Assembly: GCA_947625655.1 (NCBI GenBank) | Contig: CANQPD010000006.1 | Span: forward strand, 62,001 to 126,000 | Origin: an uncultured Dysosmobacter sp. | GTDB lineage: Bacteria > Bacillota > Clostridia > Oscillospirales > Oscillospiraceae | Direction of reading: 5' to 3' | DNA length: 64,000 bases | Shown: one piece after another, positions 1 to 50,118 of the stretch | Layout of the letters: each line of letters starts with the position of its first letter | Numbering within the stretch: the first letter of the stretch is position 1 | Translations under genes and position numbers: made by a program | Notes under the pieces: model-generated | What the model was told of the DNA's origin: nothing | Database searches by the model: none | What the model saw: only the letters and a program-made list of their open reading frames with translations

Positions 1-110
1 TGGAAGTGGGCCTGTGCAAGGGCAAGAAGAACTACGATAAACGGGCGGCCACCGCCCAGCGGGACGCCCGCCGGGAGATGGACCGCACCATGAAAGAAAG
101 GAACCGATAA
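1..110 (+). CDS. smpB: SsrA-binding protein SmpB, C-terminal end (5' truncated by window)
   Basis: The reading frame enters at base 3 and ends at TAA 108-110. The visible tail reads EVGLCKGKKNYDKR followed by a basic, Arg/Lys-rich stretch ending MKERNR, which is the characteristic C-terminus of SmpB. SmpB binds tmRNA and brings it to stalled ribosomes; the basic tail occupies the empty mRNA channel. Its RNA partner ssrA lies 1.7 kb downstream, as is common in Firmicutes. The N-terminal OB-fold is outside the window. The next gene starts 2 bases after the stop, so the two are probably co-transcribed. Confidence 0.9.
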   Translation, partial: EVGLCKGKKNYDKRAATAQRDARREMDRTMKERNR

Positions 111-13062: not shown

Positions 13063-13068
13063 GAAAGG

Positions 13069-13174
13069 GCGGAGATAAAAACACGGCCCGGTCGGTAGTC
13101 CGGGCGTACCCGCTGGGGGTATCAGTAACCTGCCTCCTTGGTTGTCCGTTCTCCGACGGCCATTTTTAAGGAGG
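13069..13174 (+). promoter_or_regulatory. yjdF-motif-type riboswitch leader with RBS sequestration
   Basis: A structured leader of about 105 nt lies before a yjdF-family gene, the known setting of the yjdF riboswitch, which binds aza-aromatic compounds. CGGCCCGG pairs with a following CCGGGC; GTACCC and GGGGTA form a second helix. CCTCCTT (13133-13139) is perfectly complementary to the ribosome-binding AAGGAGG (13168-13174), so the leader can mask the RBS. The riboswitch class is inferred from gene context and general shape; I could not align it to the motif. Confidence 0.7.
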
Positions 13175-39644: not shown

Positions 39645-39700
39645 CGCAATTCCCTCTTGCATTTTGGGGAAAGAACGTATAAGATAAATTTGGAAATCAT

Positions 39701-39790
39701 AAAAAGCGGCAGCCGTGAGGTACTCGCAATACCCCACGGCCTAGGTAGAGTGGGAAAAGCACTCATACATAGCAGCATTGCTGCACCGCA
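39701..39790 (-). ncRNA. Putative ~90-nt small RNA, copy A (antisense to the leader)
   Basis: From a start near 39790 the minus strand forms GCAGC/GCTGC, GAGTG/CACTC and an 11-bp terminator-type hairpin (39740-39730 with 39722-39712) that is followed by TGCCGCTTTTT. The same three helices occur in copy B (47603-47512) with A-U to G-C changes kept in pairs. Transcription is inferred from the promoter at 39797-39825; not demonstrated. Confidence 0.5.
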
Positions 39791-39796
39791 ACGTTT

Positions 39797-39825
39797 ATTA
39801 TAGTGTCTTTCTCCGCTTTTGACAA
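39797..39825 (-). promoter_or_regulatory. Strong minus-strand promoter, copy A
   Basis: TTGTCA (39825-39820), 17-base spacer, TATAAT (39802-39797). The same promoter and spacing occurs in copy B. It points away from the SLH gene. Confidence 0.75.
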
Positions 39826-40006
39826 GCGGAAAAGGCGCTTAGTTTCGTTGTGTTCGCATTTTGTCTTTTGACAGGCGCGGTGTATGAGACACTCATGCAC
39901 CGCGTTTATGATTTCCACCGGGGGGAGCCAAGGGGGCGCTATACCCTTTGGCCTCCCCAAACGGTGGAAATACGGGCACGGCCCGACAAAAAAGGAGACG
40001 ATAAAC

Positions 40007-42484
40007 ATGCGAACACAGCGAAAAATTTTAGCCCTGGTATTGTCGTTTATATTGACGATTGCTGTTCTCCCGACATCGGCGATAGCTGATGAAGGAGACC
40101 AGGAAGCGGCCCTTTCCGGTTATTGCGGTGCGGATAGTACGGCGGGTTCCTATACTTTTACGAATGGAAAAGGCGTTCAAAAGACCGTATATCAGAACCT
40201 TTCGTGGAAGCTAAGCCCAAATGAGGGCACAGACACTTACACATTGACCATCAGCGGCAGTGGTAAAATGAGTTCAGAAGTGCAATGGAGAAACGATCCG
40301 ACTTACTCTGCCTATAAAGACAAGATTTCCAATGCAGTTATTGAATCAGGTGTAGGCTCTATTGCAGGAGATGCCCTTCGTGAAATGGGCGGGCTGCGGA
40401 GCATTTCGATTCCCAATACAGTCACTGAAATTGGAAATTGGGCGTTTTATGATTCTGCCATCGAAACCATCACTGTCGATGCGGAAAATTCTGCATTTAC
40501 AGTTGATGAGGATAGCGTTCTCTATAACAAGGATAAAACGACACTGGTTTACTATCCGAAAACTCGGACGGGGGCCTATACGCTTCCTGCAACTGTAACA
40601 GCGTTTTGCCCCTCTGCCTTTGCAAACAGCAGTATTACTTCCATTGACATGAGCGCGGCAACGGAATTGACTGAAATTGCCCATGGAGCATTCCAGAATT
40701 GCGCAATCAGCGGGGAATTGATCCTGCCTGCAAATATTACCACGCTTTCAACCTACTCCTGTTCAGGTCTGAAGGACGCAATCGTCAGGGTCAAGGCTTC
40801 AGCGATAATACTGAATGCATATGCATTCACAGATACAAAGGCGGTAGACCTCTCCGCAGTAACCAGCATCGAAAATAATGAGTCGTGGAATTCTGCGTGG
40901 TATTATGGCGGGACAAAAGCTGTCTATGTGGATCACGAAGATGTTCTAACCAGCATTGTAGCAAATGCCTCTAAAAATGGCGTGAACTATGTGTATGATC
41001 TGAATGGCGGGTCAATATCCGTTGAAAACGCAGCAACTAAAGATGGATATGACTTTGCTGGCTGGTTTACGGATGAGGGAGAACAAAAGGAAGAGGCTCC
41101 TATAAAAGAACCCGTCCATGCAAAATGGACATTGAAAGCCCCCACGGTTGAAGTGACCGCCGACAAGACCAACGTTGTCACGGGGAAAAGCGTTACCCTG
41201 ACGGCCAATGCCGAACACGAGCTTGAGGATGTGACCTATGCCTATCAGTGGTATCGGGGTGACACCGTAATTGAGGGAGCCACCGGCAAGACCTGCACCG
41301 CTGAAAACCTGACTGACGATGCCGCGTATTCCTGCTCTGTAACCGCGTCCAGAGACGGCGAAACCAGCGAAGCGGCCACCGGCAGTGTGGAGATCAAGGT
41401 CAGCGCCCAGGAGGGAACGCTGACGCTGAGCGCCGCCAGCGGCGAAGTCCTGACCACGGCGGGGCAGGTCAGCCTGACATATGACTACAACGGCGATGGC
41501 CCGGTCACCGCATCCAGCAGTGACGAGAGCGTTGCCACTGTCGCAGTTGACCAAACGGCTAAAAAAGTGACCGTCACCGTCCAAAAAGCGGGAACTGCCG
41601 TGATTACGGTATCCGCCGGTGCAACCGATACATATACCGCCGCATCCGCCGTGTATAATCTGACCGTAAAAGAGCCTGCGCCTGTCACCCCCGGCGGCAG
41701 CTCTCACAGCGGCTCCTCCAGCACCCCCACCTACGCCGTCACCGTGGACAGCGGCAGGCACGGCACCGTCACCGTCTCCCCCAAGTCCGCCAGAAAGGGC
41801 GCTGCTGTCACCATCACCGTCAAGCCCGATGACGGCTATGAGCTGGACGGCCTGACCGTCACCGACGCCAGCGGCAAGGCCGTCAAGGTCACCGAGGGCA
41901 AGAACGGCAAGTTCACCTTCACCATGCCCGCCAGCAAGGTAGAAGTGGATGCCACCTTCACCGCGATCAAAGAAGAAACGCCCGCCCAGCGCTTCACCGA
42001 TGTCCCCAACGGCTACTGGGCTGAAGAGGAAATCAACTGGGCCGCCGAGAACGGCTATATCAACGGCAACACCGCCGCCACCTTCAACCCGGAGGGCACC
42101 GTGACCCGGCAGCAGCTGTGGATGATCCTGGCGCGGCTGTCCGGCTATCAGCCCGCCGACTTCACCGAGGCCAGGGCCTGGGCCGTGGATAATTCCATCT
42201 CCGACGGCACCAACCCCGGCGGGGCGGTGTCCCGCCAGCAGCTGGTGACCATCCTGTACCGCTACGCGGAGCGCATGGGCTATGACGCCTCCGGCTCCGC
42301 CGACCTGACGGCCTACCCGGATCACGCCGACCTGGCGTCCTACGCCGCCGACGCCATGGCCTGGTCTGTGGCCAACAACATCGTTGGCGGCACCGCCCAG
42401 GGCACGTTGGCCCCCACCGGCACCGCCACCCGGGCCCAGTTCGCGGTGATCCTGTACCGCTTCTGCGACAAGGTCGTGGGCTGA
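40007..42484 (+). CDS. SLH-anchored surface protein A (BspA-type LRR, Ig-like and InlB-type domains)
   Basis: An 825-residue secreted protein. Signal peptide 1-30; leucine-rich BspA/LRR_5 repeats about 100-275 (AVIESGVGSIAGDAL, SIPNTVTEIGNWAF); InlB_B-type repeat about 325-372; Ig-like 377-463; BIG2-like 466-556; Ser-rich linker; a beta domain 573-655 (YAVTVDSGRHGTVTVSPKSA); three SLH motifs 655-825. SLH binds pyruvylated secondary wall polymer, made with CsaB, encoded at 44595-46820. The first half is AT-richer with rare codons; the last 250 residues match the protein at 47821-50118 almost exactly. Start ATG 40007 follows AAAGGAGA. Probably an adhesin or carbohydrate-binding surface protein. 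Confidence 0.85.
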   Translation: MRTQRKILALVLSFILTIAVLPTSAIADEGDQEAALSGYCGADSTAGSYTFTNGKGVQKTVYQNLSWKLSPNEGTDTYTLTISGSGKMSSEVQWRNDPTYSAYKDKISNAVIESGVGSIAGDALREMGGLRSISIPNTVTEIGNWAFYDSAIETITVDAENSAFTVDEDSVLYNKDKTTLVYYPKTRTGAYTLPATVTAFCPSAFANSSITSIDMSAATELTEIAHGAFQNCAISGELILPANITTLSTYSCSGLKDAIVRVKASAIILNAYAFTDTKAVDLSAVTSIENNESWNSAWYYGGTKAVYVDHEDVLTSIVANASKNGVNYVYDLNGGSISVENAATKDGYDFAGWFTDEGEQKEEAPIKEPVHAKWTLKAPTVEVTADKTNVVTGKSVTLTANAEHELEDVTYAYQWYRGDTVIEGATGKTCTAENLTDDAAYSCSVTASRDGETSEAATGSVEIKVSAQEGTLTLSAASGEVLTTAGQVSLTYDYNGDGPVTASSSDESVATVAVDQTAKKVTVTVQKAGTAVITVSAGATDTYTAASAVYNLTVKEPAPVTPGGSSHSGSSSTPTYAVTVDSGRHGTVTVSPKSARKGAAVTITVKPDDGYELDGLTVTDASGKAVKVTEGKNGKFTFTMPASKVEVDATFTAIKEETPAQRFTDVPNGYWAEEEINWAAENGYINGNTAATFNPEGTVTRQQLWMILARLSGYQPADFTEARAWAVDNSISDGTNPGGAVSRQQLVTILYRYAERMGYDASGSADLTAYPDHADLASYAADAMAWSVANNIVGGTAQGTLAPTGTATRAQFAVILYRFCDKVVG

Positions 42485-42504
42485 CCCCAGGGCGCAAACC
42501 AGAT

Positions 42505-42541
42505 AAAAGAGGAACGGCGCATTTTGCGCCGTTCCTTTTTT
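42505..42541. terminator. Bidirectional terminator
   Basis: GGAACGGCGC, loop ATTTT, GCGCCGTTCC and TTTTTT, with AAAAGA on the other side. It serves SLH protein A and the convergent SSB-like gene. Confidence 0.92.
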
Positions 42542-43154
42542 ATGCTTCCGGCGGGGCGTCGCCCTCCAGCAGGTGCATCATGGAGACCTCGTAGGCCACC
42601 CGCTCCTCCGTGCCGGCGTCGGTGACCTTGTGGTATGTACGGCTCTGAACCCGGCCCTCCAGGGCCAGGGCGTCCCCCACCCCCAGGGCGCTGGCCCGCA
42701 GGGCCAGCTGCCCCCAGGCGATGACCGGCAGGTAGTCCGCCCGGCCATACCGCCGGGGGGAGGCCAGCATCAGGTCGCAGATACTGCGGCCCAGGGGCGT
42801 GCGGCGGAAGATGGGGGGCTTGCACAGGGTGCCGGACAGGAGGATCTGGTTGCAGGGCTCCCCCAGGCCCGGCTGGAGCGCCAGGGCGTATACCGTCAGC
42901 ACCAGCTTGCTGCCCACGCCGCTGCGGTTGTTGAAGGAGCGGAGCTGGCCCCGCAGGCGCAGCGGCGCGCCTGGGGCCACCAGCGGCGTCTGGGCCTCCG
43001 GCAGCAGCACCGGCAGCACGTCCGGCGTGCCGGACAGGCGGGGGACCTCCAGGAAAAAGCGGTAAAAGCTGGTATTGTGGTTTTCGTGGGACCACTCCGG
43101 CGCCGCCAGGGGCTGGCCCTCCAGCAGCACTTCGTTTTTCGGCTGAATCGTCAT
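42540..43154 (-). CDS. Single-stranded DNA-binding-like protein with two OB-type segments
   Basis: A 204-residue protein. I start at ATG 43154, preceded by GAGAGGTGG; an in-frame ATG 43184 has no RBS. Residues 20-90 (FYRFFLEVPRLSG ... LVLTVYAL) and 95-195 (ILSGTLCKPPIFRRTPLGRSICDLMLASPRRYGRADYLPVIAWGQLA) each look like OB folds; the second follows the SSB/PriB pattern (GR-x-LG-R-S-I-x-D). It is a clostridial family of SSB-like proteins, probably DNA-binding. Monocistronic, convergent with SLH protein A. Confidence 0.75.
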   Translation of the reverse strand: MTIQPKNEVLLEGQPLAAPEWSHENHNTSFYRFFLEVPRLSGTPDVLPVLLPEAQTPLVAPGAPLRLRGQLRSFNNRSGVGSKLVLTVYALALQPGLGEPCNQILLSGTLCKPPIFRRTPLGRSICDLMLASPRRYGRADYLPVIAWGQLALRASALGVGDALALEGRVQSRTYHKVTDAGTEERVAYEVSMMHLLEGDAPPEA

Positions 43155-43276
43155 GTTGTCCACCTCTCGGTCGTGATGGTGCATTTTATGAGGGGCGGAC
43201 GGCGGTTAGACCTCTTGTTTCCGGGAAACATGTAGATTATAATAGACCATCATATGACCGTTTCAGGAGGACGCCT

Positions 43277-44449
43277 ATGGCAAATCTTTTGGATTATCTG
43301 GACTGGCGGGGGGACCTGACGCTGGATCAGTCGCCCTTCAACGAGGTGGACAACCTGATCCTGGCGGAGCTGTCCTTTGTGGACTTCCGGGACATCGTCC
43401 CCGCCCCCGGCCAGGGGGAGAGCGTGGCGCTGCGGCAGGCGGCGGAGGCGTTTTTTGCCCGCTTTCCGGCGGGGGAGAAGATCGACATGGGCGTTCTGGT
43501 GCCCGCCGCCATCCCGGACATGCTGCGGAAAATGGCGGACGCGCCCCGCTTCCGGGAGATGAAGCTCAACTGCTTTGTGGACTGGCTGGACGCGGGCCGG
43601 GGCGAGCAGTTCGCCGCCCTGGCCGTCGAGACCGGGGACGGCGGCGTGTACCTGTCCTTCCGGGGCACCGACGACACCCTGGCGGGCTGGAAGGAGGACT
43701 TTGAGCTGGCCTGCATGCCGGAGGTCCCCGCCCAGAAAAAGGCGGTGGAATACACCCGGGCCGCGGCGAAGCAGTTCCCCCGGCGGAAGCTGCGGCTGGG
43801 GGGCCACTCCAAGGGCGGCAATCTGGCGGTGTACGCCGGGGTGTTCTGCCCGGAAGCGGTCCAGCGGCGGATCACGGACATCTGGTCCAACGACGGCCCC
43901 GGCTTCCACGACGACCTGCTGGACCTGCCGGAGCACCGGCGGGTGGAGGACCGCATCCACTCCATTGTGCCCAAATCCTCCATTGTGGGGATGCTGCTGG
44001 AGCACGAGGAGACCTATACGGTGGTGGACAGCGACCAGAAGGGCTTTTTGCAGCACGACGGCTTTTCCTGGCAGGTGATGGGGGACCGCTTCATCACCCT
44101 GCGGCAGGTGACGAAGCAGGCCCATCTCAGCGACCAGGCCATGCGGGAGCTGGTCCACGCCATGCCCCAGGCGGAGCGGGAAAAGTTCGTCGCCGCGTTG
44201 TTCGACGTGCTGAGCGCCTCCGGCGCGGTGACGCTGACGGACCTGAAAGCCGACAGCTTCAAGGCCGCCGGGGCCATGGTGAAGGCCATGAAGGATCTGG
44301 ACAAGGAGACCCGGGAGGGACTGCTGCGCTTTGTGGGGCTGCTGTTCAAGAGCAACCTCCGCATGACCCTGGAGGGCATCCAGGAGGATGTGGAGAAGAA
44401 TCCCGCCGTGAAGCGGTGGGGACTGAAAAAGAAGGAGGGGGAGGGCTGA
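43277..44449 (+). CDS. DUF2974 (Mbeg1-like) alpha/beta hydrolase
   Basis: A 390-residue protein. VYLSFRGTDDTLAGWKEDF and the nucleophile elbow RLGGHSKGGNLAVYA (Ser in GHSKG) are the lipase/hydrolase signature; SNDGPGFHDDLL and the later GFLQHDGFSW carry likely Asp/His. The C-terminal 120 residues are helical. DUF2974 members are cytoplasmic hydrolases of unknown substrate in gut Firmicutes. RBS CAGGAGG precedes ATG 43277. A terminator follows at 44559-44587. Confidence 0.85.
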   Translation: MANLLDYLDWRGDLTLDQSPFNEVDNLILAELSFVDFRDIVPAPGQGESVALRQAAEAFFARFPAGEKIDMGVLVPAAIPDMLRKMADAPRFREMKLNCFVDWLDAGRGEQFAALAVETGDGGVYLSFRGTDDTLAGWKEDFELACMPEVPAQKKAVEYTRAAAKQFPRRKLRLGGHSKGGNLAVYAGVFCPEAVQRRITDIWSNDGPGFHDDLLDLPEHRRVEDRIHSIVPKSSIVGMLLEHEETYTVVDSDQKGFLQHDGFSWQVMGDRFITLRQVTKQAHLSDQAMRELVHAMPQAEREKFVAALFDVLSASGAVTLTDLKADSFKAAGAMVKAMKDLDKETREGLLRFVGLLFKSNLRMTLEGIQEDVEKNPAVKRWGLKKKEGEG

Positions 44450-44558
44450 GCCGCCTGCCGGGGCGGCAGGACCCCATCGGAGCGTTGATCCCGGGTGCCT
44501 TCTCTGACGGGCGGATGATATCCGCCCCTGCGGCGCGCTGGGGAATGGGCCGGCAGAC

Positions 44559-44587
44559 AAAAACGACCGCTTTCGCGGTCGTTTTTT
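44559..44587. terminator. Bidirectional terminator
   Basis: AAAAACGACCGC, loop TTTC, GCGGTCGTTTTTT; between convergent DUF2974 and csaB genes. Confidence 0.9.
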
Positions 44588-44594
44588 GCTCTTT

Positions 44595-46820
44595 TCACAG
44601 ATCCAGCAGGCGCCTGGCAACCTCCACGTTTTGCCGCTCCATGGCCTGGAGCCGCTCCACGGCGGCCGCCTGAGAGCCGGGGTGGGCGGTCCGGGCCGCC
44701 GCCTGGTCGATCATGGCCCGGAGGGCCTCCTCCGTCAGGGCGTCCAGATCCGTGAACAGGTCCTGGCCGATATACCGGAGGAAGGCGGAGACCTTGGGAT
44801 CGTACACCACGCCCACCAGGGGGATGCCCTGCCCGGCGGCGAAGATCAGGGCGTGGAGCCGCATGGAAACCACCACCTCCATCCGGCTCAGGGCGCCGAT
44901 GATGGTGCCGGCGCCGCCGGCGTCGTCCAGGAAGTAGTGGGGGATGTCCAGCCCCCGGGCCGCCAGCCGGCTGGCCGCCGGGTCCTGGTGCTTTTCCACC
45001 GCCGTGAACACCGGGGTCAGGCCGTAGGTCTCGTAGGCGTATTTCGCCGCCGCGCCGAAGAGGGGGGCCTTTTCCTCAAAGCCCTTCCAGCGCCGCAGGG
45101 CAAAGCAGATATACCGGCCCTGGGGCGGGATGCCCGAGCGGAGCAGGACGCTGTCCGTCTCGTCGGCGGAGGCGGGCCGCAGCGTCAGGGCCGGGTCGGC
45201 GGTCAGCAGGATCTCCGGCGCGGTGACGCCCATGGCCCGCAGCTCCGCCTGGGAGTCCGGCTCCCGCAGGGTGATGACGTCCACATATCGGTTCAGCACC
45301 CGGGCGGCCAGCTTCCGGTGGTTTTCCCGGGTGACGGGGCCGATGCCGCAGCCGTACATCTGCACCTTGCAGCCGCAGCGTTTGGCGCTTTGGATATTGT
45401 GGAGGTAGAACCACAGGGACCGGCGGGAGGTCACGTCCTGGATCAGGCTGCCGCCGCCGTTGATATAGAGCTTCGCGTGCCGCATGGCCCGCCGCCAGGC
45501 GGGAATGTCCATGCGGCTGACAGAGCGGACCCGGTAGGCAAGGCGGGTGGCCCTGGGGTCCTTGCTGAGGACCAGCACCGGCATGTCCGGGTCGATGGCG
45601 CGCATCTCCTGCAGGATGGCCTCCAGAATGGCGTCGTCCCCGGCGTTGCCCCGGCCATAGGCCCCGCAGATCACCACGCCGTCCCGCTTCGCCCCGGGGC
45701 GGCTGTGGCGGCGGATGATCTCCTCATAGATGTGCAGCTGGGTGTCCACGGTCTTCTGGATGGAGAACTGGGTGAACGCTTTTTCGTACAGCTTTTCACC
45801 CAATCGGCGGCGCAGCCCATCGTCATTGCCCAGGGCGGCCAGGCGCCGGCCCAGGGCCTGCCAGTCGCCGGGGGCGAACAGATAGCCGTTGACGTCCTCG
45901 TCAATGAGATAGGGGATGCCGCCCACGGCGGTGCTGACGGTGGCCAGGTGGAAGCGGGCGCCCTCCGTCAGGGCGTAGGGGAAGGTCTCCGAGAGGCTGG
46001 TCAGGGCGTTGACGTCCAGGGCGCTGTAAAAGCGGTCCATGCCGCCGCTGATCCACCCGGCGAAGGTCACCTGTTTTTCCACGCCCAGCTCCTTTGCCAG
46101 GGCGGTGAGCTTTTCCCGTTCCTCGCCGTCGCCGGCGATGACCAGCCGCAGCCGGGGGCACTGGGCATAGGCGGCGGCGAAGCCCCGGATCAGGGTGGAC
46201 ATGTCCTTCACGGGGTTCAGCCGGGCGGCGATGCCCACCACCACGCTGTCCTCGTCCACGTTGGCCCCCAGGCTCCGCAGGTAGGGCAGCCGGTCCCCCT
46301 GGTCGGGGGCGGGGGTGAAGTCGATGCCGTTGTAAATGGCGTAAAACCGGTCCGGCGCGAAGCCCCGGTCGATGAGCAGGTCCACCATGGCGTCGGACAC
46401 GCCGATGCGGTAGTCCAGACGCCGCAGGGCCCAGGCGTTGATATTGCCGAAGGTCAGGCGGCTGAGGGGACGGCCCATGTAGTCCAGCTTGTAGTCGCTG
46501 TGGACGGTGCTGACCACCGGCAGTCCGGTGGAGCGGCGCAGCAGGGCGCCGACCATGTTGGCCCGGGCGCCGTGGCAGTGGATGACCTGATAGCCGCCCT
46601 GGCGGATGTAGTCCGTCAGCTGGCGGCGGAGGCGGGGGATGTTGTTGCCGCCGCAGATGACGGTGGGAATGCCCATCTGCCGGGCCTCCTCGGCGAAAGG
46701 GCCGTCCCGGAAGCAGACCAGCTGGGCGGTGATGGTCTTGTTCAGGTTTTGCAGCAGGCTCAGCACATGGGTCTTGGCGCCGCCGGAGTCGCCGCCGCTG
46801 ATGAGGTGGATGACTTTCAT
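44595..46820 (-). CDS. csaB: Glycosyltransferase (GT4)-polysaccharide pyruvyltransferase CsaB fusion
   Basis: A 741-residue two-enzyme protein. Residues 1-375 are a GT4 glycosyltransferase (SGGDSGGAKTHVLSLL, VIHCHGARANM, EGARFHLATVSTAVGGIPY with the nucleotide-sugar Glu). Residues 390-741 are CsaB-type pyruvyltransferase (GYGRGNAGDDAIL, YINGGGSLIQDVTS, MRLHALIFAAGQGIPLVGVVYDPKV). CsaB adds ketal-pyruvate to the secondary wall polymer, creating the ligand for SLH domains. It lies between two SLH genes, and the fused GT may build the same polymer. The fusion arrangement is common in clostridia. ATG 46820; a DUF4330 gene starts divergently. Confidence 0.9.
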   Translation of the reverse strand: MKVIHLISGGDSGGAKTHVLSLLQNLNKTITAQLVCFRDGPFAEEARQMGIPTVICGGNNIPRLRRQLTDYIRQGGYQVIHCHGARANMVGALLRRSTGLPVVSTVHSDYKLDYMGRPLSRLTFGNINAWALRRLDYRIGVSDAMVDLLIDRGFAPDRFYAIYNGIDFTPAPDQGDRLPYLRSLGANVDEDSVVVGIAARLNPVKDMSTLIRGFAAAYAQCPRLRLVIAGDGEEREKLTALAKELGVEKQVTFAGWISGGMDRFYSALDVNALTSLSETFPYALTEGARFHLATVSTAVGGIPYLIDEDVNGYLFAPGDWQALGRRLAALGNDDGLRRRLGEKLYEKAFTQFSIQKTVDTQLHIYEEIIRRHSRPGAKRDGVVICGAYGRGNAGDDAILEAILQEMRAIDPDMPVLVLSKDPRATRLAYRVRSVSRMDIPAWRRAMRHAKLYINGGGSLIQDVTSRRSLWFYLHNIQSAKRCGCKVQMYGCGIGPVTRENHRKLAARVLNRYVDVITLREPDSQAELRAMGVTAPEILLTADPALTLRPASADETDSVLLRSGIPPQGRYICFALRRWKGFEEKAPLFGAAAKYAYETYGLTPVFTAVEKHQDPAASRLAARGLDIPHYFLDDAGGAGTIIGALSRMEVVVSMRLHALIFAAGQGIPLVGVVYDPKVSAFLRYIGQDLFTDLDALTEEALRAMIDQAAARTAHPGSQAAAVERLQAMERQNVEVARRLLDL

Positions 46821-46849
46821 GGAAAGACCTCGCTTTTATCAAAATGGTC

Positions 46850-46878
46850 TTGTGAAATCGTGAAAAATATTATACAAT
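46850..46878 (+). promoter_or_regulatory. Promoter of the DUF4330 gene
   Basis: TTGTGA (46850-46855), 17-base spacer, TACAAT (46873-46878). Confidence 0.55.
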
Positions 46879-46938
46879 ATTCCACGAACATTGTCCACAA
46901 CAAGAGAAAACCGGGCGACGCCCGTTTTGGAGGAAAGC

Positions 46939-47427
46939 ATGGAACAGAAAGCAAAGCGCATTGGAAAGTTCAACATCATCGATATCATCGCCGTGATTCT
47001 GATCCTGGCGGTGCTGGCCCTGGCGGGCTGGAAGCTGCTGGGGCCCGACGATTCGGCCACTGCCCAGCGGGCCATGACCAAGGTCACCTTCACCGTCCGG
47101 GCCGAGGGCGTCCCGGCGGAGCTGTATGAGAACTGCCTGGAGCATATCCCCTCCAAGCTGATGGCCTCCGGGGCCCTGGTGGGCGGCGAGATCGTGTCCG
47201 TGGAGCAGGAGCCCTATTATGTGCTGGACGCGGGCGGCAACTGGGTGGAGGACCCCACCCACACCACGCTGCTCTTCACCGCCGTCACCGAGACCCCCAC
47301 CGCCGAGGTGATGACCACCAAGGTGGGCGACCAGGAGGTCCGCATCGGCAAGACGGACTACATTTTGAAGAGCGAGTTCATCGAGATCAAGGACGGCGTC
47401 ATTGTGGACGTCCAGTGGGAAGAATGA
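46939..47427 (+). CDS. DUF4330 family membrane-anchored protein
   Basis: A 162-residue protein: basic N-terminus, membrane helix (FNIIDIIAVILILAVLALAGWKLL), then an extracellular beta-rich domain with VTFTVRAEGVPAELYENCLEH and TTKVGDQEVRIGKTDYILKSEFIEIKDGVIVDVQ. It matches the DUF4330 pattern and is commonly found beside CsaB-like genes, suggesting a role in wall-polymer assembly. The frame extends to 46891, but ATG 46939 has TTGGAGGAAAG upstream. Divergent from csaB and followed by a terminator. Confidence 0.85.
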   Translation: MEQKAKRIGKFNIIDIIAVILILAVLALAGWKLLGPDDSATAQRAMTKVTFTVRAEGVPAELYENCLEHIPSKLMASGALVGGEIVSVEQEPYYVLDAGGNWVEDPTHTTLLFTAVTETPTAEVMTTKVGDQEVRIGKTDYILKSEFIEIKDGVIVDVQWEE

Positions 47428-47431
47428 GCGG

Positions 47432-47459
47432 GCCCCGGTGGAAACACCGGGGCTTTTTT
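47432..47459 (+). terminator. Terminator of the DUF4330 gene
   Basis: GCCCCGGTG, loop GAAA, CACCGGGGC, six T. Confidence 0.93.
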
Positions 47460-47460
47460 C

Positions 47461-47820
47461 AAATTCCTATTGCATTTTTGAAAAAGAACGTATAAGATAA
47501 AACTGGAAATCAAAAATGCGGCAGCCGCGGAGTGGTACCAACACCCCACGGCCTGCGTAAGAGTGATAGCGCACTCGTACACAGCGGCATTCGCCGCACC
47601 GCAACGTTTATTATAGTGTCTTTCCCCGCTTTTGACAAGCGGAAAAGGCGCTTAGTTTCGTTGTGTTCGCATTTTGTCGCCTTTGACAAACGCGGTGTAT
47701 GAGACACTCATACACCGCGTTTTTGATTTCCGCCGGGGAGCCAAGGGGGTTTCAGGCCCTTTTGGCCCCCACCCGGTGGAAATACGGGCACAGCCCGATA
47801 AAAAAAGGAGACGAGAAAAA
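47461..47820 (+). repeat. Duplicated structured leader B of an SLH gene
   Basis: The same order of blocks as 39650-40006: TTGCAT ... GAACGTATAAGATAAA, three small hairpins, conserved AACGTTTATTATAGTGTC, CCGCTTTTGACAAGCGG, then CGCGGTGTATGAG/CTCATACACCGCG with a following T-run, and TTTCCGCCG/CGGTGGAAA before AAAAAAGGAGACGAG and ATG. Stems keep pairing where they differ from copy A. Confidence 0.75.
47512..47603 (-). ncRNA. Putative ~90-nt small RNA, copy B
   Basis: Driven by TTGTCA (47638-47633), 17 bases, TATAAT (47615-47610). Helices GCGGC/GCCGC, GAGTG/CACTC and a GCCGTGGGGTG/CACTCCGCGGC stem are followed by TGCCGCATTTTTG. Same architecture as 39790-39701. Confidence 0.5.
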
Positions 47821-50118
47821 ATGCGGACACAACGAAAATTTTTGGCACTGTTGGTAGCAATTATTTTAGCGATATCTGTTTTTCCTATTTCGGCGTTGGC
47901 GGATGAGTTTCCTCCGGACGCGTCCGGCCTTTGCGGCGCGGAGAGCGTTAAATGGGAACTGAAAGAAAACGAGGACGGTACCTACACCCTTGTGATCTCC
48001 GGGACTGGGGCGATGGCAGACTATACTGCCGCAAACAGTGGCCAACCATGGACGGATAAGTTAGATTCCATTACAAGCATTGTGATTGAAAACGGAATTA
48101 CTGCTATTGGCGATTTTGCGTTTATGAATGCCAAAAAGGCAGAAACCGTAACATTGCCGGAGGGACTGACAAAAATTGGGCAAAGAGCTTTTGCAAATTG
48201 CGAAGCGATGAAATCACCTGTTTTTCCATCGACTCTTACAGAAATTGGGGCAAACCCATTTTATTCCTGCAATGCATTTGATGAAATTGAGCTGCCCGAT
48301 AATCTGACCACGATGGGTGAGATGTTGTTTTATTCCTGTAAAAATTTGAGCAGCATTAAAATACCTGCATCTGCAACTGCTCTTCCCGCTGAATTTGCAA
48401 AAGACTGCTCGAACCTTAAATCCATTCAGATTCCCAGCAATATTACGAGCATAGGAAATGGAGCTTTTTCAGGAACTGGACTTGAGAAGGTGATCATACC
48501 CTCAACGGTTACTACCTTTGGGACGGGTCTATTCTATAATTGCCAGAGCTTGCAAAAAGTTATAATCGAGGGAGATGCCCAAGTAGGATCGGCTACTTTT
48601 GGGAATTGTTCGGCATTGAAGACCATTATTTTTGCCTCTGCCAGCTTTGATATATGGCAAGAAACGAATAACTATATGTTCGGCACTGTATTAGATAATT
48701 GCGTGATCGTGCTGGAGGGTAACAATGTCACAGAAAACAGCGTTGAAAAAGTCCAAAAGAATATTCCTGAGAACAAATCTGTAATTATTCTTGTTACAAA
48801 TGGCTGCGACCTCCAGAATGCTGTATTTGAAACGGACGAATTAGTTGTGCCCGCCAAGGAAGGCTATACCTTTGCTGGTTGGTATGTGGACAGTGCTTTT
48901 GAAACGGAGGCTGGGTCTGTCGCTGCCGGTCAGACCTACTACGCCAAATGGTACTGCAATTCCGCCCATGAGTATGACCTTGAGAACGGCACCGTAGATG
49001 GGAATACCACCACATATCATTGCAAGAATTGCGATGGGATGGAAGTCATAACGGAAAAAGAGGATAATACGGAGACGTGTTCCCACGAGACCTGGACAGA
49101 GAAAGCGAACACCGCCACCTGCACAGAGCCAGGTAAAAAGTCCTCCGTCTGTGCAAGCTGCGGCGCTACAAAGGAAGAAGATGTGGGCGCTTTGGGCCAC
49201 AGCTTTACCAAATATAACTACAATAACGACGCCACCTATGAAAAGGACGGCACCAAGACCGCCGCGTGTGACCGCGGCTGCGGGGAAACAGATACTGTAA
49301 CGGCGGAGGGGACGCGGCTTGTCTACACACCCTCCAGTTCCTCCAGCTCCTCCAGCACCCCCACCTATGCCGTCACCGTGGACAGCGGCAGGCACGGCAC
49401 TGTTACCGTCTCCCCCAAGTCCGCCAGAAAGGGCGCGTCTGTCACCATCACTGTGAAGTCCGACGACGGCTATGAGCTGGACGACTTGACCGTCACCGAC
49501 GCCAGCGGCAAGGCCGTCAAGGTCACCGAGGGCAAGAACGGCAAGTTCACCTTCACCATGCCCGCCAGCAAGGTGGAAGTGGAAGCCTCCTTCACCGCGA
49601 TCAAAGAAGAAACGCTCGCCCAGCGCTTCAACGACGTCCCCAACGGCTACTGGGCTGAATCCGAGATCAACTGGGCCGCTGAAAACGGCTGCATCAACGG
49701 CAACACCGCCGCCACCTTCAACCCGGAGGGCACCGTGACCCGGCAGCAGCTGTGGATGATCCTGGCCCGCCTGTCCGGCTATCAGCCCGCCGACTTCACC
49801 GAGGCCAGGGCCTGGGCCGTGGATAATTCCATCTCTGACGGCGCCAATCCCGGCGGGGCGGTCTCCCGCCAGCAGCTGGTGGCCATCCTGTACCGCTACG
49901 CGGTGCGCATGGGCTATGACGCCTCCGGCGCCGCCGACCTGACGGCCTACCCGGATCACGCCTCTGTGGCGGCCTACGCCGCCGATGCCATGGCCTGGTC
50001 TGTGGCCAACGGCATCGTTGGCGGCACCGCCCAGGGCACGTTGGCCCCCACCGGCACCGCCACCCGGGCCCAGTTTGCCGTCATTTTGATGCGGTTTGCG
50101 GACAAAACGGCGAAGTGA
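47821..50118 (+). CDS. SLH-anchored surface protein B (BspA-type LRR)
   Basis: A 765-residue secreted protein. Signal peptide 1-30 (MRTQRKFLALLVAIILAISVFPISALA); LRR_5 repeats about 85-270 (SIVIENGITAIGDFAF, LPEGLTKIGQRAFANC); InlB-like repeat 330-379 (AGWYVDSAFETEAG); a Cys-pair module 419-462 (CTEPGKKSSVCASCGATKEE); Ser linker about 505; beta domain 513-594 and three SLH motifs 594-765, nearly identical to SLH protein A. The N-terminal half is AT-richer than the C-terminal half, a mosaic. Start ATG 47821 follows AAAAAAGGAG. Likely a variable adhesin displayed through the CsaB-modified polymer. Confidence 0.85.
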   Translation: MRTQRKFLALLVAIILAISVFPISALADEFPPDASGLCGAESVKWELKENEDGTYTLVISGTGAMADYTAANSGQPWTDKLDSITSIVIENGITAIGDFAFMNAKKAETVTLPEGLTKIGQRAFANCEAMKSPVFPSTLTEIGANPFYSCNAFDEIELPDNLTTMGEMLFYSCKNLSSIKIPASATALPAEFAKDCSNLKSIQIPSNITSIGNGAFSGTGLEKVIIPSTVTTFGTGLFYNCQSLQKVIIEGDAQVGSATFGNCSALKTIIFASASFDIWQETNNYMFGTVLDNCVIVLEGNNVTENSVEKVQKNIPENKSVIILVTNGCDLQNAVFETDELVVPAKEGYTFAGWYVDSAFETEAGSVAAGQTYYAKWYCNSAHEYDLENGTVDGNTTTYHCKNCDGMEVITEKEDNTETCSHETWTEKANTATCTEPGKKSSVCASCGATKEEDVGALGHSFTKYNYNNDATYEKDGTKTAACDRGCGETDTVTAEGTRLVYTPSSSSSSSSTPTYAVTVDSGRHGTVTVSPKSARKGASVTITVKSDDGYELDDLTVTDASGKAVKVTEGKNGKFTFTMPASKVEVEASFTAIKEETLAQRFNDVPNGYWAESEINWAAENGCINGNTAATFNPEGTVTRQQLWMILARLSGYQPADFTEARAWAVDNSISDGANPGGAVSRQQLVAILYRYAVRMGYDASGAADLTAYPDHASVAAYAADAMAWSVANGIVGGTAQGTLAPTGTATRAQFAVILMRFADKTAK

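Follow-up and report, generated by a model that had tools for sequence, protein, structure and literature searches.

The window analysed here, a 64,000-nucleotide stretch of contig CANQPD010000006.1 from an uncultured Dysosmobacter sp., carries two genes for SLH surface proteins, each directly preceded by a leader element of the same design (copy 1, 39657-40006; copy 2, 47470-47820) with promoters on both strands. Judging from comparative sequence analysis, one of the two opposing leader RNAs probably shuts the gene off by bringing the transcript to an early end. Both proteins contain BspA-type leucine-rich repeats, InlB-like repeats and SLH domains, and a ribosome binding site lies upstream of each ATG. 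The features are listed below, numbered from the first letter of the window.

39657..39685, plus strand: copy 1 sense promoter, TTGCAT-17-TAAGAT with an overlapping TATAAG, read from the sequence and at the same position in elements across the genus
39692..39703, plus strand: copy 1 left arm, GGAAATCATAAA, recognised as an inverted repeat and by arm covariation, near the predicted 5' end of the sense RNA, with its complement as the expected tail of the antisense RNA (predicted ends)
39696..39792, minus strand: copy 1 antisense RNA of ~95 nt, closing stem, three hairpins and U-run, from folds and pair counts (predicted ends)
39762..39773, plus strand: copy 1 pre-emptor (anti-terminator strand), CTCATACATAGC, complementary to the terminator 5' arm
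39797..39825, minus strand: copy 1 antisense promoter, TTGTCA-17-TATAAT, read from the sequence
39873..39907, plus strand: copy 1 sense intrinsic terminator, a hairpin of 16 pairs (-25.5 kcal/mol) followed by ATGATTTCC
39905..39917, plus strand: copy 1 right arm, TTTATGATTTCCA, complementary to the left arm and partly to 39962-39971
39911..39971, plus strand: copy 1 leader hairpin 3' of the terminator, formed by the right arm with a third segment (complementarity, covariation)
40007..42484, plus strand: SLH surface protein 1 (LRR_5, InlB-like repeat, SLH), with ATG 40007 chosen and not 39884 of the longest frame
47470..47498, plus strand: copy 2 sense promoter, TTGCAT-17-TAAGAT with an overlapping TATAAG, read from the sequence
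47505..47516, plus strand: copy 2 left arm, GGAAATCAAAAA, an inverted repeat
47509..47605, minus strand: copy 2 antisense RNA, cloverleaf and U-run, from folds (predicted ends)
47574..47585, plus strand: copy 2 pre-emptor, CTCGTACACAGC, complementary to the terminator 5' arm
47610..47638, minus strand: copy 2 antisense promoter, TTGTCA-17-TATAAT, read from the sequence
47688..47722, plus strand: copy 2 sense intrinsic terminator, a hairpin of 16 pairs (-25.7 kcal/mol) followed by TTGATTTCC
47720..47731, plus strand: copy 2 right arm, TTTTTGATTTCC, an inverted repeat
47725..47783, plus strand: copy 2 leader hairpin 3' of the terminator (complementarity, covariation)
47821..50118, plus strand: SLH surface protein 2 (LRR_5, InlB-like repeat, SLH), from the reading frame and Pfam

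Read from left to right, each leader contains the plus-strand promoter, the left arm, three hairpins, the leftward minus-strand promoter, the terminator hairpin with its T-run, the right arm, a last hairpin, the ribosome binding site and the ATG (40007 and 47821). From the predicted transcript start, which the left arm (consensus over both copies GGAAATCA(T/A)AAA) is expected to surround, the leader measures about 315 nt in both copies. The right arm is the reverse complement of the left one and also forms the 5' side of the last hairpin. The longest frame of SLH gene 1 begins at ATG 39884, inside the terminator hairpin, so that automatic annotation may hide the leader.

The two leaders share 297 of 342 aligned bases (86.8%), in agreement with the initial annotation, which judged them far more alike than the N-terminal coding parts that follow (64.8% identity over the first 360 coding bases), though the SLH-bearing 3' ends of both genes, at 84.2%, are about as alike as the leaders. 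The compensatory stem changes that it described between the copies also hold, namely GCAGC/GCTGC to GCGGC/GCCGC and, in the antisense letters of the larger stem, GTA/TAC to GTG/CAC. Both copies carry the reported minus-strand promoter exactly as TTGTCA-17-TATAAT (-35 boxes at 39825-39820 and 47638-47633, -10 boxes at 39802-39797 and 47615-47610), and the three-hairpin region said to end in a T-run is recovered as a closing stem, three hairpins and a U-run of about 95 nt between predicted ends. What had been overlooked is the plus-strand promoter just upstream of the element, the plus-strand terminator hairpin, the inverted repeat of 12-13 bases that bounds the element and the additional hairpin ahead of the start codon. 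For copy 2, which the fold test against chance covered, the minus-strand region gives z = -4.64 and the whole plus-strand leader z = -9.05; the support from the family, set out in what follows, is stronger.

The element is not confined to this locus. A plain DNA search finds it in 8 of 60 genomes, its own included. The covariance-model search of related genomes, proposed by the initial annotation, returns matches well beyond the two loci and with conserved pairing: the first model (R1), built from ten elements of nine loci, gives 127 matches, spread over 40 of 61 genus genomes (one genome per species, own genome included), with up to 12 per genome. R1 lacks the pairs of hairpin 2, probably through misalignment; a second model of the antisense strand (R2) includes them and matches 30 of 197 genomes of the order, spanning 17 of 111 genera, and, more sporadically, 12 of 341 genomes sampled across the class and 7 of 348 across the phylum. 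Each of these three samples includes the own genome, and the class sample also holds two nearer relatives found before. An exact-pattern scan of named genomes detects 61 stretches, for example in Oscillibacter, Lawsonibacter, Flintibacter, Dysosmobacter and Pseudoflavonifractor, as well as in Agathobaculum, Acutalibacter and unclassified Clostridia; Flintibacter muris, Oscillibacter sp. 1-3 and Pseudoflavonifractor capillosus are among the named strains. The initial annotation had offered a mobile leader cassette as another possibility; the patchy occurrence in distant families fits horizontal transfer.

The host genome itself contains three copies. The third, on another contig (C11, 4499-4605), stands ahead of a gene whose product begins like a lipoprotein and has an SH3 domain; a resolvase gene lies about 1.7 kb away. 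Two copies (loci L275 and L276) occur in a genome from a different genus of the family, each before a gene with the same 60 initial residues as printed, a pattern suggestive of a mobile unit.

Further analysis used 72 of the 125 R1 matches outside the window, those weaker than about E 5e-9 being left out. The resulting 74 genus elements were reduced to 52 representatives, of which 51 entered the fold alignment (one containing N was dropped) and 50 the switch tests; 70 of the 74 elements entered the all-element fold test. A wider set consists of loci beyond the genus, which took no part in model building; 29 of 40 passed the filters for the pre-emptor test, and some (e.g. L256, L262, L263, L283 and L284) have no convincing terminator or promoter.

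Both promoters recur at a fixed position. Under a strict rule, 53 of the 74 genus elements have the sense promoter, 54 the antisense promoter and 38 both, against block-shuffle expectations of 0.6 (sense) and 0.3 (antisense), and the sense window read on the wrong strand yields a single hit. The corresponding figures among 39 loci of the wider set are 22, 21 and 13. A looser rule, TTGnnn-(16-18)-TAnnnT, places a sense promoter in 72/74 genus elements and 28/39 wider-set loci.

The minus-strand RNA has the hallmarks of a conserved structure. RNAalifold, applied to this strand of the 51 aligned representatives, gives a closing stem with three hairpins, a cloverleaf in which 26 of 31 pairs have changed on both sides. 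Its paired positions are occupied by pairs in 96.2% of cells, compared with 85.3% after shuffling and 29-57% when the partner is slid. Non-Watson-Crick cells, written in antisense letters, comprise 256 G-U, 8 A-C and 51 others, and the antisense fold is stabler than the sense fold in every leader compared (73/73 in the genus, 29/29 in the wider set). For hairpin 2 the values are -13.5 kcal/mol (antisense) and -8.4 kcal/mol (sense), the sense hairpin being weak because the G-U wobbles of the antisense fold read as A-C in the sense RNA. Mean pairwise identity is only 0.32-0.44 in loop columns versus 0.71 in stems. On this sequence evidence, there is good support for the minus-strand RNA as the partner that folds and for the sense strand as a terminator-bearing leader, which bears out the earlier proposal of a paired regulatory, antisense RNA tied to surface proteins.

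The sense terminator is present almost throughout, with 50 of the 52 representatives passing the filters for hairpin, energy and absence of N. Its 5' arm is complementary to the 3' half of leader hairpin 2, here called the pre-emptor, which lies inside the target of the antisense RNA. The pre-emptor occurs in several versions (CTCAGCAC, CTCAACAC, CTCRTACA and CCTACACA, with CCATGCACA in relatives of the third own copy), and terminator arms have changed along with it: pairing of the pre-emptor with the terminator 5' arm of its own element scores -15.05, versus -12.45 for swapped partners, a difference reached in 0 of 10000 permutations (n = 50). The own partner is still better when swaps are confined to the same pre-emptor class (2/5000), and the co-variation reappears in the wider set (n = 29, 4/10000). 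As controls in the n = 50 test, no significant preference for the own terminator arm is seen with hairpin 1, hairpin 3 or the left arm. The anti-terminator (-15.1 kcal/mol) is the stronger structure in 49 of 50 representatives when compared with sense hairpin 2, and in 38 of 50 when compared with antisense hairpin 2. In a transient fold in which only the 5' arm of the terminator has been made, that arm pairs with the pre-emptor in 41/50 representatives and 55/70 elements, compared with 14% for shuffled arms among the 70.

Collectively, these data point to each element being a cis-encoded transcription attenuator controlled by antisense RNA, a reading to which we assign a probability of roughly three in four, on comparative grounds. 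The outer promoter would produce a leader RNA that begins close to the left arm, and the inner promoter an antisense cloverleaf of ~95 nt ending at its own U-run, again near the left arm. When the antisense RNA is scarce, the pre-emptor, kept available by the A-C mismatches that weaken the sense hairpins, would pair with the emerging 5' arm of the terminator, so that no terminator forms and the surface gene is read; coevolution and energies favour this step. With the antisense RNA bound to the leader, the pre-emptor would be covered, the terminator could fold, and transcription would halt before the gene. Owing to the variable loops, an antisense RNA would presumably act for the most part on the leader of its own element.

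Several observations weigh against this mechanism. A broader pre-emptor window (50-90) gives a weaker signal in the wider set (75/10000). The 5' half of hairpin 2 also prefers its own terminator arm (0/2000), which is what one expects if either the terminator or hairpin 2 derives from the other; duplicated hairpin sequence thus explains part of the pre-emptor signal, and the argument from specificity is diluted. In the transient fold, copy 1 shows 0 bp between arm and pre-emptor and is one of the 15 elements, out of 70, that fail in this way. In 39/50 representatives the fold of the full leader already contains the terminator, which indicates that termination may be the default and that the switch would need to be kinetic. 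Even under the loose rule, 11 of the 39 wider-set loci have no sense promoter. Finally, the two arms and the last hairpin are not accounted for by this model.

In the alternative that survives best, antisense control would take another route, with RNase III cutting the duplex or the convergent promoters interfering, and the terminator would be an ordinary insulator. Opposed promoters and full complementarity exist here by construction, and the terminator formed in 39/50 full-leader folds suits an insulator; nevertheless, this account leaves unexplained both the co-variation of pre-emptor and terminator arm within elements and the position of the pre-emptor inside the antisense target, and is considered improbable. 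Less probable still is a minus-strand cloverleaf that serves primarily as a trans-acting or protein-binding RNA, with the sense leader secondary. The antisense fold and its closing stem are indeed conserved beyond the apparent needs of such an antisense RNA, yet the sense promoter and terminator are kept alongside it, and the poorly conserved loops offer no common target sequence.

The arms bear on a further alternative. They co-vary with each other (8.92 of 10 matching positions within elements versus 7.79 after swapping, 0/10000), and the right arm co-varies with the third segment of the last hairpin (-21.4 own versus -16.9 swapped, 0/10000); right arms match at at least 9 of 12 bases in 70 of 74 genus elements. 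Since the right arm is mostly made after the terminator, arm pairing should act only in read-through RNA, where it may influence how stable the mRNA is or compete with the tail of the antisense RNA, whose sequence is nearly the same. Invertons likewise place inverted repeats around a promoter before surface genes. If the element were such a phase-variable invertible promoter, recombination would take place at the repeats of 12-13 bases, and an inversion would let the inner promoter, now pointing away, drive the gene; both copies have perfect repeats on either side of the promoter segment, with joint changes from one copy to the other, and surface proteins are typical inverton targets. Against this, the arm mismatches, read as sense RNA, are 31 G-U against 9 A-C, a tolerance expected of RNA pairs; the outer promoter stands on the left-arm side in 72/74 genus elements, and an inward loose promoter within 100 bases around or beyond the right arm in 0/74, though the wider set is less clean (28/39 on the left side, 4/39 on the other, by the loose rule). 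Terminators stand at both ends, so inversion would not obviously turn the gene on, and none of the genome's 32 PF00589 integrase or 21 PF00239 resolvase matches is on the window contig, although an invertase elsewhere could act. An inverton is therefore dropped as very improbable, given the absence of the inverted arrangement from all 74 genus elements (one genome per species) and the G-U-tolerant arms.

The attenuator reading finds its closest parallel in plasmid replication control. The initial annotation knew of no described RNA class with this plan; however, promoter, counter-promoter, pre-emptor and terminator together form the plan of the pT181-type attenuator, as far as the consulted portions of the sources describe it, where an 87-nt antisense RNA is opposed to a leader whose pre-emptor pairs with the terminator 5' arm, and antisense binding permits termination (PMC5703833, PMC4878617). 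The element resembles RNAI/repC of pT181, as described there, in an antisense RNA complementary to the untranslated leader, in the pre-emptor and in the proposed antisense-dependent termination. It differs in its three-hairpin cloverleaf antisense RNA, its extra arms and further hairpin, its several copies in many genomes, and the surface, secreted or mobile-element genes downstream; no plasmid replication gene occurs among the Pfam families listed for the downstream proteins (25 of 26 families for 59 genus proteins, and those of 34 wider-set proteins).

A branched antisense RNA is known from pCF10, where, according to the consulted part of the report, Anti-Q drives the nascent prgQ transcript into a termination fold at IRS1, upstream of conjugation and adhesin genes (PMC7117660). 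Branching and induced termination are thus shared with the element as predicted, whereas the pCF10 system, in the same account, is plasmid-borne and under PrgX pheromone control; the four neighbour genes scanned besides SLH protein 2 include no PrgX-like repressor. Outside plasmid replication control, antisense-induced termination is described, in the portion of the source consulted, for Shigella RnaG/icsA and Vibrio anguillarum RNA-beta (PMC8383071). These two are presented there as single-locus systems, in contrast to the covarying family in many genomes seen here. The icsA product is also a surface protein.

The likeness to plasmid RNAs is one of anatomy, and membership in one of their sequence families is not supported. 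Neither in the window nor in 20 relatives does an Rfam match above the gathering score fall on the element. When both copies are scanned permissively, no pT181-named family is listed; RF00106 RNAI appears with E 1.8-2.1 at or around the terminator of the preceding gene, and the other matches are at chance level (e.g. rli48, E 2.1). Plasmid and phage records hold no match to copy 2, and viral contigs no exact match to one element pattern. The literature search found no account of the family, with supplementary motif lists (e.g. PMC8040213) outside its coverage, where an unnamed entry may coincide. Antisense-controlled attenuators have been described, in the parts of the literature consulted, for a few plasmids and single genes; the element is, on strong comparative support from sequence, a predicted new, large, multi-copy variant of countertranscript attenuation.

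Downstream reading frames were found for 70 of the 74 genus elements, and 59 were scanned with Pfam, as were 34 of 38 in the wider set; frames that looked like chance or contained N were left unscanned, and near-duplicates were kept in the protein sets. Matches do not always precede SLH genes, a point raised in the initial annotation: SLH domains occur in 17/59 genus and 7/34 wider-set downstream proteins, and in the own genome 2 of about 34 SLH open frames carry the leader. Other genus-set products include integrases (2), beta-lactamase-family proteins (3), DUF4230 proteins (3), a PemK toxin and TraX. By a crude signal-peptide rule, 33 of 66 downstream genes are positive, versus 39 of 222 background frames, which were chosen under a stricter ribosome-site rule and may hold some downstream genes. 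The wider set contributes three serine recombinases (two from one genome), two TnpB-like proteins and one SymE; these are loci L253, L254, L257, L274, L267 and L255 in distant genomes, where the element stands before serine recombinases, TnpB-like transposases and a SymE-type toxin. Given such genes, the element is possibly of mobile-element origin.

If the element works as proposed, it would show how gut bacteria set individual surface proteins by RNA alone. The genes that follow it often encode S-layer or other secreted proteins of such bacteria, and the family would also provide many naturally related attenuators for study, perhaps orthogonal ones. A more far-reaching picture, possible but doubtful, is that of switches made of RNA only, scattered by horizontal spread and each with a separate loop code, in which opposed promoters and an antisense cloverleaf give ON/OFF control per surface protein without DNA rearrangement; such switches would also control mobile-element recombinases, TnpB and toxins, perhaps having been recruited from there, and the arms and last hairpin would add a further RNA layer that has not been described.

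A gene located between the two SLH genes, at 44595-46820 on the minus strand, encodes glycosyltransferase and polysaccharide pyruvyl transferase domains (PF04230). SLH proteins are anchored through a pyruvylated wall polymer, so that a possible anchor enzyme adjoins the SLH proteins. Elsewhere in the window, an azaaromatic (yjdF) riboswitch scores above the Rfam gathering threshold at 13065-13165 on the plus strand, and a tmRNA gene occupies 1851-2214, also on the plus strand.

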